A DNA stretch of 47,775 nucleotides from an uncultured Alphaproteobacteria bacterium (lineage in GTDB: Bacteria > Pseudomonadota > Alphaproteobacteria > Geminicoccales > Geminicoccaceae), in assembly GCA_902826935.1 (NCBI GenBank), contig CADEGR010000009.1, positions 1-47,775 of the forward strand, in the 5' to 3' direction. Numbering within the stretch: the stretch's first letter is position 1; each line of letters starts with the position of its first letter. The position numbers and the translations under genes are program-made. Under the pieces are notes generated by a model that worked only from the letters and a program-made list of their open reading frames with translations, did not search any database and had not been told where the DNA came from. Shown here one piece after another: positions 5,519-16,100 of this stretch.

Positions 5519-7923
5519 CAGGCAGGCTCCTTTCGATCGGCAAGCAGCCGGGCGGCGGCAATCGCCGCCTGGCCGAGCGCCAGGCCGCCGTCATTGGCGG
5601 GCACCCGGGCGTGGGTCAGCACCTCGAGGCCAAGCGGCGCCAGACGGGTTAGGCACTGCTCGAGCAGGATGCGGTTCTGGAACACGCCGCCGGAGAGCAC
5701 GATGCGCTGGATCAAACTCTGGTCCGGCCGCTGCACGAGCTTCGCCACCATGCCAGCGATCGCCTTCGCCAGACCGCGGTGGAAGCGGGCGGCGATGACG
5801 CCCGCGGGTGTGCCGAGCGTCAGGTCGCCGAGCAGCGCCTGCCACATCGCGAGCGGCTCGACATAAGGCAGCCGGCTGCCCGGCAGCAGGGGCAGCGTGA
5901 AGGGATAGGCCAGCAGCTCGTCCTCGCCGTCGAGGGCGGCCCGATCGACCGCCGCCTCCAGCAGCATGGCCGCCTGGCCTTCGAAGCTCGCCCGCTCGAA
6001 GCACAAGTCCAAGGCGGCCGCGACCGCATCGAACAGACGCCCGGCCGAGCTGGCGGACGGACAGTTCAAACCTTTCGCCAGCATCGCCGCGATGGTGGCA
6101 GAAGGCATCGCCTGGAGCCGGCGATAGAGCGCCAGCTCCTGGAATTCCAGCTGGAAGCGGGCCCAGCCCAGTTCCGCCAGCAGATGGGCATGGAGATTGC
6201 GCCAGGGCTCGCGCGCGGCGGCAGCGCCGCCTGGCATGGCGACCGGCTTGAACGTGCCGAGCCGCTGATAATCCCGATAGTCGGCCAGCAGGAACTCGCC
6301 GCCCCAAAGCGCACCATCCTCGCCCAGGCCCAGCCCGTCCAGCACCACGCCCAGGACCGGCGCCGCCTCGAGCGGCGCGCCGTGCTCGGCGAGGCAGCTT
6401 GCGATATGGGCGTGGTGGTGCTGGACCTCGAGCACAGGCAGACCGTCGGCGCCGGCAAGCTCCTGGCCGAACGCGCTGGCGACATAGCCCGGATGTCGGT
6501 CGATCGCGATCGCTTCGGGCCGATGCTGGAACAGAACGCTCAGCCGCTCCAGCTGGTCGCGGTAGTCGGCCTGGACCCGCGCCTCCTCGAGATCGCCCAG
6601 ATGCGGCGAGAGCAGCGCCTGGCCGTCCTTGATCAGGCAGAAGGTCGCCTTCAGCTCGCCGCCCATGGCCAGCAGATCCGGCGCCTGCTCGAAGCCCGGC
6701 GGCAGCGGCAGGGGCTCCGGCGCCAGGCCGCGCGCGCGGCGCAGGACGCGCGGCGCGCCGGCCATGACGCGGAGCACCGAATCGTCGACGCGATTCAGGA
6801 TCGGCCGGTCGTGGGTCAGGACGTAATCCGCGATGCCGGCCAGGCGCGCCATGGCATCCGCATCGTCGGTGCATTGCGGCTCGTCGGAGCGATTGCCGCT
6901 GGTCATGACCACCGGCCGGTCGAGACGCTTGAGCAGCAGATGGTGCAAGGGCGTGTAGGGCAGCATCACGCCGATGGTCGCCATGCCCGGCGCCAGGGCC
7001 GCCGGCAGGGACCGACCGGCGGGCTCGACCAGCAGGATCGGTGCGGCCGGGCTCTGCAGCAGCTGGCGCTCGACCGGGCCCAGGCGGCAATAGCGCTCGG
7101 CCATCGCCAAATCGCGCAGCATCAGCGCGAACGGCTTGGCGTCCCGCTGCTTGCGCTGGCGCAAGCGCTCGACTGCCTCGGCATTGGTCGCATCGCAGGC
7201 GAGATGGTAGCCGCCCAGCCCCTTGATCAGGACGATCTCGCCCTTCTGCAGCAAGGAGCCGGCGGCGTCGACCGCATCCAGCATGCTATGCGCGCTGACG
7301 TCGAACACTCGGCCGTCCAGCCGGCGCAGCACCGCCTTCGGGCCGCAGGCATGGCAGGCGATCGGCTGCGCATGGAAGCGCCGGTCGGCGGGATCGGCAT
7401 AGTCGGCGGCGCATTCGGCGCATAGGGCGAAGCCCGCCATGCTGGTGCTGGCCCGGTCGTAGGGCATGGCCGCCATGATCGAGTAGCGCGGGCCGCAATC
7501 GGTGCAGTTGGCAAACGGGTAGCGGTAGCGGCGATCGAACGGGTCCTGAACCTCGGCCAGGCAGGCGGGACAAGTCCCGACATCGGGCGTGATCCAGCTA
7601 TGCAGCCCTTCGTTGCGGCTGGCGACGATCCGCAAGTCCGGATGGCGCTGCTGGACGGGCGCCGGCTGCCGCTCGATCCGATCGATCCGGGCAAGCGGCG
7701 GCGGTGCGGCCTGCAGCTCGCGCAGCAGCCGATCGATCGCGGCGGCCGGGCCGGTCAAGGTCGCGACCACGCCCTGCCCGTCATTGCGGATCTCGCCGGT
7801 CAGCCCTTCTGCCGCGGCCAGCCGCCACAAGGTCGGCCGGAAGCCCACGCCCTGCACGAGGCCTTGGATCCGGATGGTTTCGGCGACAATCGGAGCGTCG
7901 CGGCTGGCGGCGAGCCCGCTCAT
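5518..7923 (-). CDS. hypF: Carbamoyltransferase HypF
   Basis: HypF makes carbamoyl-adenylate from carbamoyl phosphate and transfers the carbamoyl group to HypE. The 801-residue product has an N-terminal acylphosphatase domain (IQGLVQGVGFRP, about 17-105), two zinc-finger repeats built from C-x2-C pairs (CPAC, CTDC, CAEC, CHAC, about 120-200), a YrdC-like domain (LIKGLGGYHLACDA onward) and a Kae1-like C-terminal domain (VQHHHAHIASCLAEHG, LSGGVFQNRIL). The ATG at 7923 overlaps the NHL gene stop by 4 nt and begins at the expected residue for the family; the longer open frame upstream is antisense noise. Confidence 0.96.
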   Translation of the reverse strand: MSGLAASRDAPIVAETIRIQGLVQGVGFRPTLWRLAAAEGLTGEIRNDGQGVVATLTGPAAAIDRLLRELQAAPPPLARIDRIERQPAPVQQRHPDLRIVASRNEGLHSWITPDVGTCPACLAEVQDPFDRRYRYPFANCTDCGPRYSIMAAMPYDRASTSMAGFALCAECAADYADPADRRFHAQPIACHACGPKAVLRRLDGRVFDVSAHSMLDAVDAAGSLLQKGEIVLIKGLGGYHLACDATNAEAVERLRQRKQRDAKPFALMLRDLAMAERYCRLGPVERQLLQSPAAPILLVEPAGRSLPAALAPGMATIGVMLPYTPLHHLLLKRLDRPVVMTSGNRSDEPQCTDDADAMARLAGIADYVLTHDRPILNRVDDSVLRVMAGAPRVLRRARGLAPEPLPLPPGFEQAPDLLAMGGELKATFCLIKDGQALLSPHLGDLEEARVQADYRDQLERLSVLFQHRPEAIAIDRHPGYVASAFGQELAGADGLPVLEVQHHHAHIASCLAEHGAPLEAAPVLGVVLDGLGLGEDGALWGGEFLLADYRDYQRLGTFKPVAMPGGAAAAREPWRNLHAHLLAELGWARFQLEFQELALYRRLQAMPSATIAAMLAKGLNCPSASSAGRLFDAVAAALDLCFERASFEGQAAMLLEAAVDRAALDGEDELLAYPFTLPLLPGSRLPYVEPLAMWQALLGDLTLGTPAGVIAARFHRGLAKAIAGMVAKLVQRPDQSLIQRIVLSGGVFQNRILLEQCLTRLAPLGLEVLTHARVPANDGGLALGQAAIAAARLLADRKEPA

Positions 7924-9101
7924 GACGCCAGGCGCCAGAGCAGGATGCGATTGTTGCCGCTGTCCGCGATCGCGACCAGGCCGTCCGCCACGGCGACCGC
8001 ATAGGGCCAACACAGCGAATCCCGCGCCACCGCCTGCCACCGATTGTCGCCCTTGGCGGCGAAATCCGGCTGGCCGGTCAGCAGGCTGGCCGCCGCCCCG
8101 GTCGCCAGCTCCTCGACGCGCCAGCCGAGCAGGCGGGAGTTGGCGGTGTCGGCGACGATCAGCCGGCCGCCGGCCGCGGCGACGCCATAGGGCATGTTGA
8201 GGGCGGCGGCGTCCGGCCAGTAGCGGCTGCGGTTGTGCTCGGTCGCGGCGGCATCGGCTTGGCCCAGGATGAGATCGGCGGGCTGGTTGCTGGCCGGCCG
8301 CGGGCTCCGCCACAGCAGGAGCCGGTTGTTGCCGGCATCGGCCACGGCCAGCCAGCCGCCGATCAGCGCGATCTGATGCGGCCAGCGCAAGCTGCCGGCG
8401 GCGGGTGCCGCGCCGCCATTCTCGTCATGGCTGGCAAAACCCGCCTGCCCCAGCACCGCATCCGCCGACTGGCCATTGACCACCGGCAGGCGGTCCCAGA
8501 TCAGGACGCGGCGATTGCCGGTATCAGCGACGTAGAGGCGATCGCCTTCGGCATGGACGCCGTAGCACCAATTGAGCGTATCGGCGCCCGCCTCCGCCTG
8601 GCCACGATTGGCGAGCACCTCCCCGAAGCCGGCTTGGCCCAGCACCAGATCGGCCGGCTGGTGGCTGGCTTGGGGGAGGTCCTGCCAGATCAGAACCCGG
8701 TGGTTCCAGGCATCCGCGACCGCGAGGCCCCGGCCGCAGCGAGCGATGCCGGTCGGCACGTTCAGGCTGGCAGCATTGGCGGGGCCTTGGCCGTTGCGCC
8801 CTTCGCGCCCGAACGCGGGCTGGCCGATCAGCCAGTCGGCCGGCGTGCCGTCCGCAGAGGGCGGCCGGCGCCAGCCCAGCAGGCGATGATGGCCGGTATC
8901 GGCAACCCAGAACGGCCGGTCGGGACCGGCCAGGCAGACGCCGCGCGGCCCGAACAGGCTGGTACGGCTGGGCGTCACCGGCACCGGCAGCTCGCTGGTC
9001 TGGCCGCCCAGCACGGTCGAAGGGCCGGCAGGATCGAGCAACGGCGCTGGCGGCGGCATGGGCAGCGCCGGGCGCGGTGCGGCCTGGAGCGACACCCGCA
9101 T
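7920..9101 (-). CDS. NHL-repeat beta-propeller protein of the hydrogenase operon
   Basis: The 393-residue protein contains six repeats of the form [VI]AD-x-x-[NH]-x-R-[LVI]-L-x-W (VADTGHHRLLGW, VADAWNHRVLIW, VADTGNRRVLIW, VADAGNNRLLLW, VADTANSRLLGW, IADSGNNRILLW). Between them are linkers with L-x-GQ-x-x-F/D, so it should fold as a six-bladed NHL propeller. No signal peptide or membrane segment is evident, so a cytoplasmic location is likely. NHL proteins are known from group 2a hydrogenase operons, but their role is not established; a scaffold or protein-protein contact role in assembly or docking is my inference. The ATG at 9101 overlaps the preceding gene's stop by one base, and the 3' end overlaps hypF. 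Confidence 0.88.
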   Translation of the reverse strand: MRVSLQAAPRPALPMPPPAPLLDPAGPSTVLGGQTSELPVPVTPSRTSLFGPRGVCLAGPDRPFWVADTGHHRLLGWRRPPSADGTPADWLIGQPAFGREGRNGQGPANAASLNVPTGIARCGRGLAVADAWNHRVLIWQDLPQASHQPADLVLGQAGFGEVLANRGQAEAGADTLNWCYGVHAEGDRLYVADTGNRRVLIWDRLPVVNGQSADAVLGQAGFASHDENGGAAPAAGSLRWPHQIALIGGWLAVADAGNNRLLLWRSPRPASNQPADLILGQADAAATEHNRSRYWPDAAALNMPYGVAAAGGRLIVADTANSRLLGWRVEELATGAAASLLTGQPDFAAKGDNRWQAVARDSLCWPYAVAVADGLVAIADSGNNRILLWRLAS

Positions 9102-9994
9102 CAGCCCGCTCCCGCCAGCTGGACCTCGACCATGCCGCCGATCACGCGCACCACGCGCGGCTCGAGCTGAACCTCCGGCGCGGTCAGGCACTCGCCGGAT
9201 GCGAGATCGTATTGGAAGCCATGGTGCGGGCAGGTGATCACGCCATCCGCGATTCTGCCGCCATCGAGCGGCATCGCCAGATGGGCGCAGGCATTGACGT
9301 AGCAGGCGACGCGCGACCCGGCGCGGCTGAGCAGCAGCGCCTCGCCGCGCAGCGCCAGCGGCAGCGCGCCGCCGTCCGGGACCTGATCGAGCAGGCAGGC
9401 CCGATGCCAGATCCCGGTCCGGTGCTGCACGAACGGGCTGACGAAATCGACCGCGGCCGCGGCCGGCCTGGCCACGCCCAGGCCGCTCGCCTGGCGGATC
9501 TCGGTGATCTCGGGACAGTGCTCGCGGATCGCGCGCTTGACGCCCGCGGTGAAGGTCAGGACCGAGGCCGGGCAATGGTCGCAATTGCCGAGGAAGCGGA
9601 CCTCGACCCCCGCCGGCGGCAGGAGCTGGACCAGCTCGACATCGCCGCCATGGCCGGCCAGCATCGGCCGGATCGAGGCCAGCGCCGTCTCGACCCGCTC
9701 CTGCAGGCTGGGCTTGATCAGGCCGTGGCGGCGCAGCACCGCATAGACGACCTCGTCCCCCGCCACCTCACGCAACGCTTGAAGGGCCACAGGTTCGGCC
9801 TGCAAGCCCTTGATCAGGCGCCGGATCGCCTCGCGCTGCAGCGCCGCCTCGGCGGCCCGCAGCTCGGCCAGCGCCAGACGCTGCGCCGGATCGGCCCAGG
9901 CTTCGGTCACCTGCTCGGCCAGCTGCAGCGCCCGCAGCAGACTGTCGAGGCTTTGGGCCTCTTCAGCGGCGGGCAAGGCTGCGGCCTGGGCCAT
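9101..9994 (-). CDS. NifU-domain / Rieske [2Fe-2S] fusion protein (HucE-like)
   Basis: The 297-residue protein combines three parts. An alpha-helical N-terminus (1-100) is followed by a NifU C-terminal-type Fe-S domain (about 102-165) with C138-x2-C141 in GNCDHCPAS. A C-terminal Rieske domain (about 195-295) has C236-x-H238 (NACAHLAMPLDGG) and C255-x2-H258 (CPHHGF), the four ligands of a Rieske cluster. A Rieske protein in the mycobacterial Huc operon has been proposed to relay electrons from the hydrogenase to the quinone pool; the same role fits here but is inferred. The fusion could both carry and deliver clusters. There is no Tat signal or membrane anchor, so it is cytoplasmic. Confidence 0.88.
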   Translation of the reverse strand: MAQAAALPAAEEAQSLDSLLRALQLAEQVTEAWADPAQRLALAELRAAEAALQREAIRRLIKGLQAEPVALQALREVAGDEVVYAVLRRHGLIKPSLQERVETALASIRPMLAGHGGDVELVQLLPPAGVEVRFLGNCDHCPASVLTFTAGVKRAIREHCPEITEIRQASGLGVARPAAAAVDFVSPFVQHRTGIWHRACLLDQVPDGGALPLALRGEALLLSRAGSRVACYVNACAHLAMPLDGGRIADGVITCPHHGFQYDLASGECLTAPEVQLEPRVVRVIGGMVEVQLAGAG

Positions 9995-10004
9995 GGTCGG
10001 TGGC

Positions 10005-10229
10005 CTAGCGGTATTTCAAGTCGCGGAACAGATAAGGCTGGAGCGCACCGCCGAGCCCGCCGGCCAGGATCGCCACCAGCCAGACCGGCAGACCCGCCAA
10101 TGCCAGGACCAGGGTCAGGAGCGCCGTCGCGCCCGCCCCGACGCCGATCTGGCGCAGGACCTTGGCATTGTCCTGGAACAGCTTGCCTTGCACGAAGAGC
10201 TGCATCGACTGGGCCGCCATCTGGAGCAT
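10005..10229 (-). CDS. Small hydrophobic glycine-rich protein, candidate membrane adaptor
   Basis: A 74-residue protein starting at an ATG with a good upstream GGAGG (spacing about 7). Residues 1-28 are amphipathic (MLQMAAQSMQLFVQGKLFQD). Residues 31-67 form one or two hydrophobic helices with G-x3-G spacing (ALLTLVLALAGLPVW, then LVAILAGGLGGALQPYL), ending in the charged tail FRDLKYR. I recognise no named family. It lies between the other small membrane protein and the Rieske gene, so it is probably part of the hydrogenase's membrane or quinone interface. Confidence 0.78.
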   Translation of the reverse strand: MLQMAAQSMQLFVQGKLFQDNAKVLRQIGVGAGATALLTLVLALAGLPVWLVAILAGGLGGALQPYLFRDLKYR

Positions 10230-10243
10230 CGTCGGTCCTCCGC

Positions 10244-10441
10244 TCAGGCGATCAGCGTGTAGAGGATGAGGCCCGCCAGGGCACCCAGGAAACCGCCCAT
10301 TGGCCCGTAGAAGGCGCCCATGAGGGCTGCCAGCTCGTTGCCGATATGCTTGCCGCCCACCAGGATGCCGCCGACCACGCCGCCCGCCAGCGAGGCGAGC
10401 AGCGCCAGAAGTGCTGCCAAGACAAATCCAGCCGCTGTCAT
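10244..10441 (-). CDS. Small glycine-zipper membrane protein of the hydrogenase operon
   Basis: A 65-residue, almost wholly hydrophobic protein predicted to have two membrane segments (about 6-28 and 36-64). Both are dense in G-x3-G and G-x2-G patterns (LAGGVVGGILVGG; GAFYGPMGGFLGALAG). The ATG overlaps the TPR gene stop (ATGA), so translation is probably coupled. In the mycobacterial group 2a enzyme, the separate protein HucM scaffolds the complex and forms a hydrophobic stalk to the membrane. By position and composition this protein and its neighbour at 10005-10229 could fill that role, but I see no sequence proof of homology. Confidence 0.78.
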   Translation of the reverse strand: MTAAGFVLAALLALLASLAGGVVGGILVGGKHIGNELAALMGAFYGPMGGFLGALAGLILYTLIA

Positions 10442-11475
10442 GCCGCGCCATTCTCCTGCTTGCCGTCCGCCAGACCGATCCCGGCCAGGGCCTGGCCGAA
10501 GCCGCCACCATGGTCGAGGCCGGCCGCACCCAGCTCGGCCAGCGCGTGCTCGACGATCTCCGCCTTGGCTGGCTCGCCCTGGGCCGTGAAGATCGCGCGC
10601 GCCTCGCGATAGAGGGCCACCGCCGCCGCGAGATTGGCCGGGTTGCCGGCCGCCGGCCGGTCCGGATCGTCCGGCAGATTGGCCAGGCAATTGGCCTTGT
10701 TGGCGATAGTATTCGCATAAGCCAGCGGGCTGTCCCGCCGGTTGCGAACCTTCAGCGCCTCATCGTAAGCCTCGATGGCGCGCAGATTGTTCGCTACCGG
10801 ATGCGCGCTCACCGCATATTGCAGCGCATTGCCAAGGTTGTTCTGCAGCATCGCATATTCGTTGGGGTGGTCGATCAGGTTGACCACCGACAGGCCCTCC
10901 TCGAAGGACTGCACCGCCAGCGCCTCGCGCATGCTGGCCCGGCCGTCGGCGAACGGCATGGCGAGGAAGGCAGTGGCGAGGTTGTTGTGCAGGATCGCAT
11001 AGTCCTTCGGATGCTTTGCCTTGTCGAACACCCGAAGGGCGCGCTGATAGGCCTTGATGGCATCGGCCAGCGGCGCCTTGCCCTGGCCCGCCAGGCTCTG
11101 CAGGCACAGGCCCAAATTCAGGTCCAGCTCCGCCAGCTCCAGCGCCTCGCCCGATGCGGCCACGACCGGGCGCGCCTCCTCGAACGCCTGGCGCGCCTGC
11201 TGCAGCGCGCCGCCATCCGGCTCGGGCAGCGCCTGCAAGGCGGTACCACGCCGCGCGGTGATCCGGGCGGCGGTGAGCCGGTCGTCGGCGACGAGCGCGA
11301 GCGCCCGATCGTAGAGCTCGATCGCCTGGTGCAGCTGATCCGGGGATTTGGGCCTGGTCTGCAGGCCGGTCGCGATCGCCACCAGCATCTCGGCGCGCTC
11401 ATGCTCCGGAATCGACGGCTCCGAAGCCGCCTGGATCGCGGCATCGACCTCGGCATCGGCGCGCGTCTTGTGCAT
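10438..11475 (-). CDS. Tetratricopeptide-repeat protein of the hydrogenase operon
   Basis: A 345-residue helical protein with TPR-like repeats: AIELYDRALALV near 48, AIKAYQRALRVFD near 140, a repeat around ALAVQSFEEGLSVVN near 195, AIEAYDEALKVR near 235 and AVALYREARAIF near 290, separated by L-x-x-NLG-x-x-L/A helices. TPR arrays bind partner proteins. Position inside the operon, between the endopeptidase and the small membrane proteins, suggests an assembly or docking factor, but this is inference. The ATG at 11475 has GGGAG about 7 nt upstream. The 110 nt gap before it is one of the larger gaps in the operon and contains a short hairpin (ATCGC-TTTT-GCGAT at 11564-11577) with no clear promoter. 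Confidence 0.85.
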   Translation of the reverse strand: MHKTRADAEVDAAIQAASEPSIPEHERAEMLVAIATGLQTRPKSPDQLHQAIELYDRALALVADDRLTAARITARRGTALQALPEPDGGALQQARQAFEEARPVVAASGEALELAELDLNLGLCLQSLAGQGKAPLADAIKAYQRALRVFDKAKHPKDYAILHNNLATAFLAMPFADGRASMREALAVQSFEEGLSVVNLIDHPNEYAMLQNNLGNALQYAVSAHPVANNLRAIEAYDEALKVRNRRDSPLAYANTIANKANCLANLPDDPDRPAAGNPANLAAAVALYREARAIFTAQGEPAKAEIVEHALAELGAAGLDHGGGFGQALAGIGLADGKQENGAA

Positions 11476-11585: not shown

Positions 11586-12362
11586 TTAGTTTACAAAAAG
11601 CAGCGCCAGGGCAGCGACGTCCGGCCGCCAGCAGCCAACCATCGGTCGCTCGCTCTCGCCATCCAGCCCGTGTTCGTGGAAGAAGTCGGCGGCCTGGATC
11701 ACCCGGTCGCCGACGCGGTTGCGCTGCTTCAAGAGATAGCCGCCGGCCGCGGCGTGGCGGACCGGCATGATCAAGAGCTCGGGCGCGCGCCATTGCAGGA
11801 TCACGCCTTCGCAGCCGGAGAAATAGCGCGCGCAGAGCGCCGCCGGCAGATGTAAAGCGCTGCGCTTGAGCGTCACCCCGTCGCGCTGCCGGCGCGACCA
11901 GGCTTTGATGCGACGCTGCAGCTGCGCCTCGACGATGCCGGCGGCGCGCTCGACCGGCGGGCTCAGATTGAGGCCGAGGCCGGTATCGACCGCCTCGATC
12001 AGGCAGGCCGTGACATCGGCCGGAAACGCCTCCTTGAAGATCTGCCGGCCCGCGAACAGCGCGTGCTCCCAGCGGAAATCATGCAGGTTCAAGCTGGGCG
12101 GCGGCCGGGCGGCGAGCTCGCTGCCGGGCACCTCGAACACCGCACCCGGCTCGCTGCCGGAGCAGCAGGCATCGATCACCACCAGCGCCTGGGCGCCCCG
12201 CGCCTGGAACATCACCTCCATGCCGGCGGTGCCGCAGTCCAGCACCCGCACCGTCGGCTCTGGCGGCAGGCTCGCCAGCCAGCGCTGCAGCCGCTGCGCC
12301 ACCACCACGCCGACGCCATCATCAGAACGATTGAGATTGCCGCAGCCGATGATCGCCAGCAT
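11586..12362 (-). CDS. Hydrogenase maturation endopeptidase with C-terminal extra domain
   Basis: Residues 1-155 are a HyaD/HupW-type endopeptidase, which trims the large-subunit C-terminus after nickel insertion. The nickel-sensing ligands are visible: D15 (in RSDDGVG, equivalent to E16 of the E. coli family), D64 (VVIDACCSG) and H94 (LNLHDF). The usual family length is about 150-165 residues. This protein has 258, with an added domain (about 160-258; LKRSALHLPAALCARYF, RVGDRVIQAADFF, GCWRPDVAALALLF) that I do not recognise. The substrate is probably the HucL tail 16 residues long encoded at 13110-13157. The gene starts 7 nt after the second four-cysteine gene. Confidence 0.9.
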   Translation of the reverse strand: MLAIIGCGNLNRSDDGVGVVVAQRLQRWLASLPPEPTVRVLDCGTAGMEVMFQARGAQALVVIDACCSGSEPGAVFEVPGSELAARPPPSLNLHDFRWEHALFAGRQIFKEAFPADVTACLIEAVDTGLGLNLSPPVERAAGIVEAQLQRRIKAWSRRQRDGVTLKRSALHLPAALCARYFSGCEGVILQWRAPELLIMPVRHAAAGGYLLKQRNRVGDRVIQAADFFHEHGLDGESERPMVGCWRPDVAALALLFVN

Positions 12363-12369
12363 CGGCCGC

Positions 12370-12687
12370 TCAAATCCGCCAGAGGCGGCAGGACCATTCG
12401 GGCCGGACCGGCAGCATCAGCTCGGGCAGCTCGCAAAAGCGGCGATGGACCAGGTAGTACATGCAGGTTTCGCAAGCCTGCTCGAGGTCGTCCTGGACGA
12501 AGGGCTGCGCCGTGAAGCCGGCGATCCGCAGCCGGCCATCGAGGTCGCCCGGCGCCAGCTGCCGCAGCCGCTCCTGCACCGCCTGGATCTCTGCCAGATC
12601 GTTCGCGCGCGGCACGACCTCGACATCGCTCAGCCCCGGCAGCTTCTGCCCGATCTGGTCACGCAGCCGGTCATCGTCGGCGGCCAT
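12370..12687 (-). CDS. Four-cysteine protein, paralogue 2 (unknown function)
   Basis: A 105-residue acidic protein. Its last 35 residues carry CETCMYYLVHRRFCELPELM and end PEWSCRLWRI, a C-x2-C-x9-C-x14-C arrangement followed by the terminal RLWRI. The neighbouring gene at 12715-13029 has the same spacing and the same CMYYLVHR, LPEL, CRLWRI blocks, so the pair arose by tandem duplication. The N-terminal halves (about 70 residues) are less similar. Such a compact Cys set could bind zinc or an Fe-S cluster. The start has a strong GGGAGGGCGGAG leader. Located between the large subunit and its endopeptidase, it probably acts in assembly or electron transfer; I cannot tell which. Confidence 0.82.
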   Translation of the reverse strand: MAADDDRLRDQIGQKLPGLSDVEVVPRANDLAEIQAVQERLRQLAPGDLDGRLRIAGFTAQPFVQDDLEQACETCMYYLVHRRFCELPELMLPVRPEWSCRLWRI

Positions 12688-12714: not shown

Positions 12715-13029
12715 TCAGATCCGCCAGAGCCGGCACCACCAGTCCGGCTCGACCGGCACCGCCAGCTCCGGCAGATCGCACCATTTGCGATGCACGAGAT
12801 AGTACATGCACTCCTGGCAGCGCTGCTGGTCCGGGCCATAGGGATGATTGACGAAGCCCGAGATCACCAGCTTGCCCTTCAGGTCCGCCCGATCGAGCGC
12901 CCGCAGCTCGTCGAGGATCCGGCCGAATTCCTTGTCGGTCTCCGGAAACGGCTCGGTCTGGGTCTCGAGGCCGTCCGAGAGCATCTGATCAATCAGCTTG
13001 AGCAATTCATGATGCGCCGCGCCACCCAT
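12715..13029 (-). CDS. Four-cysteine protein, paralogue 1 (unknown function)
   Basis: A 104-residue protein directly downstream of the hydrogenase large-subunit gene. The N-terminal 70 residues are charged and helical (LLKLIDQMLSDGLETQ, RILDELRALDRADLKGK). The C-terminus has CQECMYYLVHRKWCDLPELA and ends PDWWCRLWRI, i.e. C-x2-C-x9-C-x14-C as in its paralogue. ISGF and the terminal CRLWRI are also shared. No named family comes to mind. It is likely a metal- or cluster-binding accessory of the group 2a enzyme. An 80 nt spacer separates it from the large-subunit stop. Confidence 0.82.
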   Translation of the reverse strand: MGGAAHHELLKLIDQMLSDGLETQTEPFPETDKEFGRILDELRALDRADLKGKLVISGFVNHPYGPDQQRCQECMYYLVHRKWCDLPELAVPVEPDWWCRLWRI

Positions 13030-14725: not shown

Positions 14726-15688
14726 TCAGACCACGAAGATGTCTTGCTCGGCCCAGGCCGGAGCGGCTGCCTTGGCGGCGGCGGTCAGCTTGATGTAGCC
14801 GGTCTTGTCGACGCCGGTCGGCATGTCCTTGGGCACGCCCATCACGGTCTGGGTCTTGAAGACCGTGCCGGGCGCCAGGTCGAAGAACGGAAATTCCGGC
14901 TCGGTGCAGCCCAGGCAGGGCATGCCGGCGCGCGTCTTCGAGGACACGCGGTTCCACAAGATGCGGTTGCAGGGCGAGTGGGTCATCGGCCCGCGGCAGC
15001 CAAGATCGTAGAACAGGCAGCCCTTGCGCTGGCCGAACTCGGTCGCCGAGACCTTGTAGGCGAAGTGCATGTTCCGGGTGCAGCCGGTCTGGGTGAAGCT
15101 GGAGAAGAAGGTCTTGGGCCGCTGGAAGTCGTCCAGGCCGACCTCGCCGCCGCGCCCGGAGGCGACCGCCACCAGGATCTGGGTGACCCAGTCGGGATGG
15201 GCCGGGCAGCCCGGGATGTTGATCACCGGCAGGCCGGACTTGGCGCGGAACGCCGTGCCCAGATAGCCGCCATGGGCGCGCTTCAGGAATTGCAGGCCCT
15301 GGCTTTCGGACGGGTTGGGCGCGGTCGCCGGGATGCCGCCCCAGGTGGCGCAGTCACCGATCGCCACGACATACTGCGCGGCCGCCGCCAATTCGGCCAC
15401 CCAGTCCTTCATCGGCCGGCCGGCGAAGCGGTTCCAGGCGCCGGTGCCGTTGGGCGCGTTCACCACGGTGCCCTCGAACACGAAGATGTCGAGCGCCAGA
15501 TCGCCGGCGACGCAAGCGCGCAGCAGCTTTTGCAGGTTCTCGCCGAGCTCGACGCCTAGGGAGGGATGCCAGAGCACGTTGATGCCGAAATCAGTCACCA
15601 GATCGCAAGCGCTGGGCTCCTCGGCATTGAGGAACGACATGGTGTTGCCGGAGCAGGCACCGCCCTGCAGCCATAGCAGGTTCGCCAT
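14726..15688 (-). CDS. hucS: [NiFe] hydrogenase small subunit, group 2a (Huc/HupS type)
   Basis: The 320-residue electron-transfer subunit starts MANLLWLQGGACSGNT with no Tat signal, so the enzyme faces the cytoplasm. Cluster ligands are visible at C12, GDCATWGG, IPGCPAHPDW, TGCTRN, KGCLFYDLGCRGP, SPCN and GMPCLGC. The proximal site is C12-x-x-N15, whereas most small subunits have C-x-x-C here; that change is a hallmark of group 2a and fits a three-cysteine [3Fe-4S] proximal cluster as reported for Huc. The ATG at 15688 is preferred over an upstream in-frame ATG at 15757 because it has AGGGAGGG in the right place, matches the family N-terminus, and lies downstream of the sigma-54 promoter. 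It is the first gene of the operon. Confidence 0.95.
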   Translation of the reverse strand: MANLLWLQGGACSGNTMSFLNAEEPSACDLVTDFGINVLWHPSLGVELGENLQKLLRACVAGDLALDIFVFEGTVVNAPNGTGAWNRFAGRPMKDWVAELAAAAQYVVAIGDCATWGGIPATAPNPSESQGLQFLKRAHGGYLGTAFRAKSGLPVINIPGCPAHPDWVTQILVAVASGRGGEVGLDDFQRPKTFFSSFTQTGCTRNMHFAYKVSATEFGQRKGCLFYDLGCRGPMTHSPCNRILWNRVSSKTRAGMPCLGCTEPEFPFFDLAPGTVFKTQTVMGVPKDMPTGVDKTGYIKLTAAAKAAAPAWAEQDIFVV

Positions 15689-15881: not shown

Positions 15882-16100
15882 TCAGCCCTTGCGGCTGCCG
15901 CAAGACGGGCACTCGACTTCCAAATGCAGCCCCTCCCAGATGCCCTGGCAGCGGCTGCACCAATGACCGGACAGCCCCGCCTCGTCGAGGCGGAGCGCCA
16001 CCACCAGACGGGAGCGGCCGAGGCGCCGGGCGGGCGCGCGCGCCGGCCGGACGGCCGCACGGGGGAACGGCAGGACGGCGGCGGGCGGCCGGTCGGACAT
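15882..16100 (-). CDS. Small zinc-ribbon protein
   Basis: A 72-residue protein with an arginine-rich N-terminus and a C-terminal zinc ribbon, C48-x2-C51 (HWCSRCQG) and C64-x2-C67 (ECPSCGS). Its ATG begins directly after the regulator's TAG stop, so it is co-transcribed with the regulator. It ends 133 bp above the hydrogenase promoter. It might act in metal handling or as a small regulatory partner, but nothing in the sequence decides this. Confidence 0.65.
   Translation of the reverse strand: MSDRPPAAVLPFPRAAVRPARAPARRLGRSRLVVALRLDEAGLSGHWCSRCQGIWEGLHLEVECPSCGSRKG

Follow-up and report, generated by a model that had tools for sequence, protein, structure and literature searches.

Two small membrane proteins as a candidate membrane dock of group 2a [NiFe]-hydrogenases that lack HucM

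A group 2a hydrogenase locus with two small hydrophobic proteins

The window analysed here is the whole stretch of 47,775 nucleotides from an uncultured Alphaproteobacteria bacterium (Geminicoccaceae; contig CADEGR010000009.1 of assembly GCA_902826935.1), and its minus strand carries a group 2a [NiFe]-hydrogenase locus. The HucL protein falls in the group 2a clade and is accompanied by HucS, HucE, TPR, NHL and Hyp proteins. The gene order is hucS, hucL, two genes for cysteine-motif proteins of ~100 aa, a maturation protease gene, a TPR gene, two small genes (here s1 and s2), hucE, an NHL-repeat gene and the hyp genes. The features are listed below.

14726-15688, minus strand: HucS small subunit; the conserved start is the ATG at 15688; no hydrophobic segment
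13110-14711, minus strand: place of hucL in the gene order
12715-13029, minus strand: cysteine-motif protein of 104 aa, after hucL
12370-12687, minus strand: 105 aa paralogue of the 104 aa cysteine-motif protein
11586-12362, minus strand: hydrogenase maturation protease (HycI/HupD type) with a C-terminal extension
10438-11475, minus strand: TPR protein, alr0691-like, 345 aa, upstream member of the portable block
10244-10441, minus strand: s1, 65 aa, predicted membrane hairpin of the asr0689 family (NF052670.1), from profile match, AF2 model and dN/dS
10005-10229, minus strand: s2, 74 aa, predicted amphipathic N-terminal helix and membrane hairpin, counterpart of asr0690 by position and features, from AF2 model and alignment
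9101-9994, minus strand: HucE, with a NifU domain (PF01106, E 2.9e-19) and a Rieske [2Fe-2S] domain (PF00355, E 8.5e-15)
7920-9101, minus strand: NHL-repeat protein, downstream member of the portable block

The original prediction placed two adjacent genes for hydrophobic proteins of 65 and 74 aa between the TPR and Rieske genes, and this arrangement was confirmed. The ATG of s1 overlaps the TPR stop codon, and a GGAGG lies a few bases 5' of the s2 ATG. The Kyte-Doolittle window test detected two hydrophobic segments in s1 and two in s2. No segment of HucS, HucL, TPR, HucE or NHL passed this test, and the prediction of an enzyme without a membrane anchor held for both hydrogenase subunits.

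Two further kinds of small proteins were observed at the locus. The cysteine-motif paralogues, in tandem right after hucL, share the motif C-x2-C-x-Y-[YF]-x3-H-[RK]-x-[WF]-C-x-[LI]-P-E ... W-x-C-R-L-W. They were seen in 64 of 90 loci, were absent from Nostocales-type and HucM-type loci, and gave no match in Pfam, NCBIfam or PDB. Both are likely to be small Fe-S or metal proteins; their W-x-C-x2-W end is reminiscent of HiPIP, an identity that was not confirmed. A 72 aa zinc-ribbon-like ORF with weak similarity to HypA (15882-16100, minus strand) lies between hucS and a sigma-54 regulator and is kept at the same place in most proteobacterial group 2a loci.

Conservation and distribution of the pair

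The GC-rich window holds many overlapping ORFs, a setting in which s1 and s2 might be spurious products of a high-GC strand. The chance of this is negligible, and the reading is ruled out by conservation. Both proteins could be aligned across Pseudomonadota, Cyanobacteriota, Nitrospirota and Myxococcota; the s2 alignment is nearly gap-free over the four phyla (length 73-76 aa). Invariant residues are G15, L17, G61, P65 and L67 in s2 and G21 and G42 in s1. Nonsynonymous change was lower than synonymous change in 13/13 pairs of relatives (dN/dS mostly 0.05-0.3), and the order TPR-s1-s2-HucE-NHL was kept in all five related Pseudomonadota genomes. By their sequences, s1 and s2 are real genes, conserved, under purifying selection and kept in one portable block. 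The two proteins were also said to be full of G-x3-G patterns. This is correct for s1 (8 against 2.7 expected from shuffles, P 0.00025), and the excess in s2 on its own is not significant (2 against 0.9, P 0.24), while the family averages exceed expectation for both (5.5 vs. 2.3 for s1; 1.6 vs. 0.65 for s2).

A HucL scan of species genomes gave 80 named loci, mostly from Pseudomonadota and Cyanobacteriota with some from Nitrospirota and Myxococcota. A profile search of other group 2a loci had been suggested as a test of the prediction, and the pair turned up in nearly all related loci. Among the 85 group 2a loci searched with profiles, s2 was detected in 68 and s1 in 66. For 12 of the 16 loci without s2 in the fetched stretch the gene was located elsewhere in the genome (the figure of 14/18 in the whole-genome search includes two positive controls), giving a total of 80/85 loci or their genomes with s2. 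These counts are not all independent, as certain genomes are represented by two loci (L042 and L090; probably L039 and L069). The locus L122 is cut after s1 by a contig end, and L085 and L086, without s2, are short contigs of MAGs. True absences were found in L080 (strain SYSU D60014) and L112, which retain hucSL and TPR-HucE-NHL and whose genomes are without DUF1641, the domain of HucM. The pair is therefore not universal, as this one small clade of two loci has neither the pair nor HucM. The loss of both small genes from these two related proteobacterial loci offers a natural test of the need for the pair. No natural s1-s2 fusion was found in the group 2a loci, and profile comparison of s1 with s2 gave no similarity of note.

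The pair is not new: it has its counterpart, for s2 by position and features, in asr0689/asr0690 from Nostoc sp. PCC 7120, a gene pair of nitrogen-fixing cyanobacteria that was described in 2008 with two TM regions in each protein (PMC2408588, PMC3126725). The Nostoc genes are cotranscribed with TPR, NifU-like and NHL ORFs and with hyp genes, and were found only in strains with an uptake hydrogenase; together with the neighbouring ORFs they were proposed to help HupS maturation, and those papers contain no mutant (PMC2408588, PMC3126725). Like s1 and s2, asr0689/asr0690 (Npun_R0366/R0365 in N. punctiforme) are adjacent small two-TM proteins. They form one block with the TPR, NifU-like and NHL genes between hupSL and the hyp genes, and s1 and s2 lie in an equivalent block. 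The alphaproteobacterial proteins likewise have two TM regions each and share this block near a group 2a hupSL; unlike the Nostoc pair, they sit in a pseudomonadote, after the TPR gene. By profile, s1 matched NCBIfam NF052670.1 (the asr0689 family) over residues 9-60 with an E value of 1.3e-8 and 34.7 bits, below the equivalog cut-off of 95 bits, and s1 is thus a family member in the wide sense. No library family was found for s2. HMMs of s1 and s2 found the pair in Nostoc, Scytonema, Calothrix and other cyanobacterial loci, where the s2 HMM matched the second protein of the pair in Nostoc linckia, Calothrix and Scytonema; the link of s2 to asr0690 is one of position and features. The original prediction considered such genes too short for many annotation pipelines, yet they are not always missed: the annotation of Sphingopyxis alaskensis lists both, under the name of hypothetical proteins.

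The TPR-s1-s2-HucE-NHL block was found on the opposite strand to hucSL in L040, L075, L078, L081, L107 and L114 and in cyanobacteria, and far from hucSL in Solimonas (L144), Rhodanobacter (L145), Nitrospirales (L146 and L151) and Burkholderiales (L149). By neighbourhood, s1 and s2 are therefore closest to TPR and HucE; the pair travels with TPR-HucE-NHL and not with hucS, the gene beside which hucM sits. Nostoc linckia (L148, G482:C1:155000-172000) has a second TPR-s1-s2-HucE copy away from hucSL, adjoined only by a 20-residue hucS-like fragment, and Brasilonema has two s2 genes. Among 399 Pseudomonadota genomes s2 occurs in five, four of them with a group 2a HucL; the fifth is G004, in which the contig breaks off within the protease gene immediately before the block, which is otherwise complete. 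The pair is therefore specific to the group 2a hydrogenase.

We also examined the distribution of HucM. In mycobacteria the product of the gene upstream of hucS is a DUF1641 protein, and its match to the Huc membrane subunit of PDB 7uus (E 2.9e-34) allows HucM to be searched for in genomes. As the original prediction had supposed, a protein of this form is missing: there is no DUF1641 gene in the genome to which the window belongs (94.7% complete). A search of 49 genomes that carry this hydrogenase type, 47 of them with the pair, likewise detected no DUF1641. HucM therefore cannot be the anchor in these organisms. DUF1641 is present in the Mycobacterium, Thermus and Sulfobacillus plasmid loci, and these three loci have no s2 and no small hydrophobic protein near TPR/HucE. 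They are the HucM-type loci that were read directly; a fourth, from Parageobacillus, is taken from the literature, where the Huc operon begins with a DUF1641 gene (PMC12976888). A Thermus protein of 125 aa at the place of the pair was considered as a counterpart and rejected since it is soluble and does not resemble the pair. The longer TPR proteins of HucM loci were considered as carriers of the hairpins; their extra length does not come from hairpins. A search of Myxococcota for more HucM-type group 2a loci added to L118 only two distant matches (45% identity). For the group 2a loci on Bacteroidota plasmids (L126 and L127; Runella and Hymenobacter), a search of the plasmids detected neither the pair nor DUF1641.

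The HucL tree unites the DUF1641 loci in one clade and the pair loci in one group, and it calls for only one loss of the pair, in the L080/L112 clade. The switch occurred once, so that the mutual exclusion of pair and HucM amounts to about one event. DUF1641 is also rare in Pseudomonadota (one of 399 genomes), and for both reasons the exclusion gives no independent statistical support to a replacement of HucM by the pair. The sole DUF1641 gene among these genomes (L168:4076-4504, minus strand) adjoins a sulfide:quinone oxidoreductase/NDH-2-like flavoprotein gene, a neighbourhood that fits a general role of DUF1641 as an adapter for quinone coupling (HucM, ForE).

Predicted structure and a possible membrane dock

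The AF2 model of s1 consists of two long helices (3-33 and 35-64; pLDDT 92.8), and that of s2 of a helix at 2-14 and a hairpin of helices 21-44 and 49-67 (pLDDT 92.4). The s2 helix 2-14 is called amphipathic from its sequence. In s2 the charges lie at the N-terminus and in the tail, in s1 they lie in the turn, and the membrane helices have almost none; the conserved charged parts are LF.GKLF.D (s2 N-terminus), QP.LFKDLKY (s2 tail) and GGK.LG.EL (s1 turn). Based on this charge distribution and the positive-inside rule, these parts probably face the cytoplasm, where HucSL and HucE are. Foldseek comparison of both models with PDB gave nothing significant, as expected for two-helix hairpins. Apart from the asr0689 family match, profile searches of s1 and s2 in Pfam, PDB and NCBIfam returned noise; a match of s2 to PspM/Rv2743c (E 0.0017) was far below the cut-off.

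We propose, with moderate confidence and on the strength of sequences and models, that s1 and s2 are dedicated integral-membrane accessory proteins that act as the dock of the HucM-less group 2a branch, a device that may work like HucM and is not HucM. The two proteins would assemble through their glycine-rich helices into a small membrane dock, whose cytoplasmic faces would hold HucSL at the membrane, directly or through TPR/HucE, so that electrons could reach the quinone pool. Such a dock would do the job of HucM with a different fold and without the 94 Å soluble tube. The pair is the best candidate for the missing membrane link because it occurs only with this enzyme branch, in genomes without HucM. 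S. alaskensis RB2256 oxidises H2 to sub-atmospheric levels (PMC10305171); its plasmid locus has a pair of 70 and 73 aa and there is no DUF1641 on that plasmid, so the HucM-less type works in vivo. Cyanobacterial HupSL was reported to be membrane-bound without TM segments, and a "third membrane-embedded subunit" was suspected (PMC6616624), for which the pair is an obvious candidate.

The main rival to the dock is an assembly platform, in which s1 and s2 are no part of the working enzyme and keep the TPR-HucE-NHL machinery membrane-bound during the building or insertion of the HucS Fe-S clusters. This is the role that the Nostoc papers proposed for the ORF block (PMC2408588, PMC3126725), and we regard it as a serious though rather unlikely explanation. 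The pair always lies inside the TPR-HucE-NHL block, the Nostoc block is cotranscribed with hyp maturation genes and was proposed to serve HupS maturation (PMC2408588, PMC3126725), and HucE carries a NifU domain. The departure of the pair from hucSL together with the block (L040, L075, L078, L144-L146) counts against the dock in that it fits assembly of HucE/HucS as readily as docking. On the other hand, HucM-type loci and L080/L112 have TPR-HucE-NHL and no pair, and the block therefore needs no pair for assembly as such; nor is there an obvious reason why cytoplasmic cluster assembly should employ two membrane hairpins exactly where HucM is missing. For the dock itself, the loci without pair and DUF1641 (L080, L112 and the two Bacteroidota plasmid loci) mean that the job can be done in another way or is not always needed.

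A literal split HucM, with s1 and s2 together forming a HucM-like hydrophobic tube or stalk as the original prediction had it, appears very improbable. The functional need is the same, HucM is missing and glycine-rich helices could oligomerise, but s1 and s2 have no profile similarity to HucM, a soluble protein of 188 aa (PMC10017518), whereas they measure 65-74 aa with most residues in membrane helices. What survives of this part of the prediction is functional replacement, which is plausible because nearly every related group 2a locus carries the pair and these genomes lack HucM; the stalk as a structure does not agree with the predicted membrane hairpins. A role as a small transporter or channel, for instance for nickel or protons as substrates of the hydrogenase system, seems improbable as well: each protein has two TM regions and the Nostoc paper names "possible ABC transporters" (PMC2408588), but there is no ATPase, no similarity to Pfam transporters beyond noise, no PDB match and no conserved charged residue within the membrane helices.

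Returning to the membrane dock, a wider and more tentative possibility is that the pair represents the long-sought third, membrane-embedded subunit of cyanobacterial and proteobacterial uptake hydrogenases, a two-protein integral-membrane quinone dock that replaces the HucM stalk. Electron transfer to plastoquinone/ubiquinone from HupSL/Huc enzymes, which carry neither signal peptide nor anchor, was stated to be unresolved for cyanobacteria (PMC6616624). The quinone link is solved only for mycobacterial Huc, by HucM, and the pair is specific to exactly the enzymes that have no answer. If the proposal is true, one enzyme core reaches the quinone pool by two unrelated ways. The pair turns the question of the quinone link into a two-gene deletion test in H2-consuming strains (S. 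alaskensis, Nostoc), and oxygen-insensitive hydrogenases of the HucM-less branch may need s1 and s2 when placed in other hosts.

Comparison with HucM and other quinone-linking proteins

The HupC/cytochrome b subunits of group 1 hydrogenases are likewise membrane subunits that link a hydrogenase to quinone. Unlike them, each of s1 and s2 has two membrane helices, and no histidine suited to heme binding is conserved in either. Small adapters that link an anchorless oxidoreductase to the quinone pool are known in ForE, of the menaquinone-linked formate dehydrogenase of B. subtilis, and YjlC, the NDH-2 coupling protein. ForE carries DUF1641 (PMC8808070) and YjlC is a weak match of HucM in PDB; both are peripheral proteins, unrelated to s1 and s2.

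The HucM protein combines a soluble scaffold, which holds the HucSL octamer, with an amphipathic coiled-coil tube that stands on the membrane, and its gene lies directly upstream of hucS (PMC10017518). The pair, in contrast, follows the TPR gene and is over 4 kb downstream of where hucS starts. Neither s1 nor s2 showed profile similarity to HucM (DUF1641/PF07849; 7uus chain Q), while the same tools found a real HucM homologue in another locus (L123). HucM is a soluble cage with a coiled-coil tube, and the models of s1 and s2 predict single membrane hairpins with no soluble coiled coil. Different as they are, HucM and the s1/s2 pair are candidates for the same job, namely membrane attachment and quinone access of an anchorless group 2a hydrogenase.
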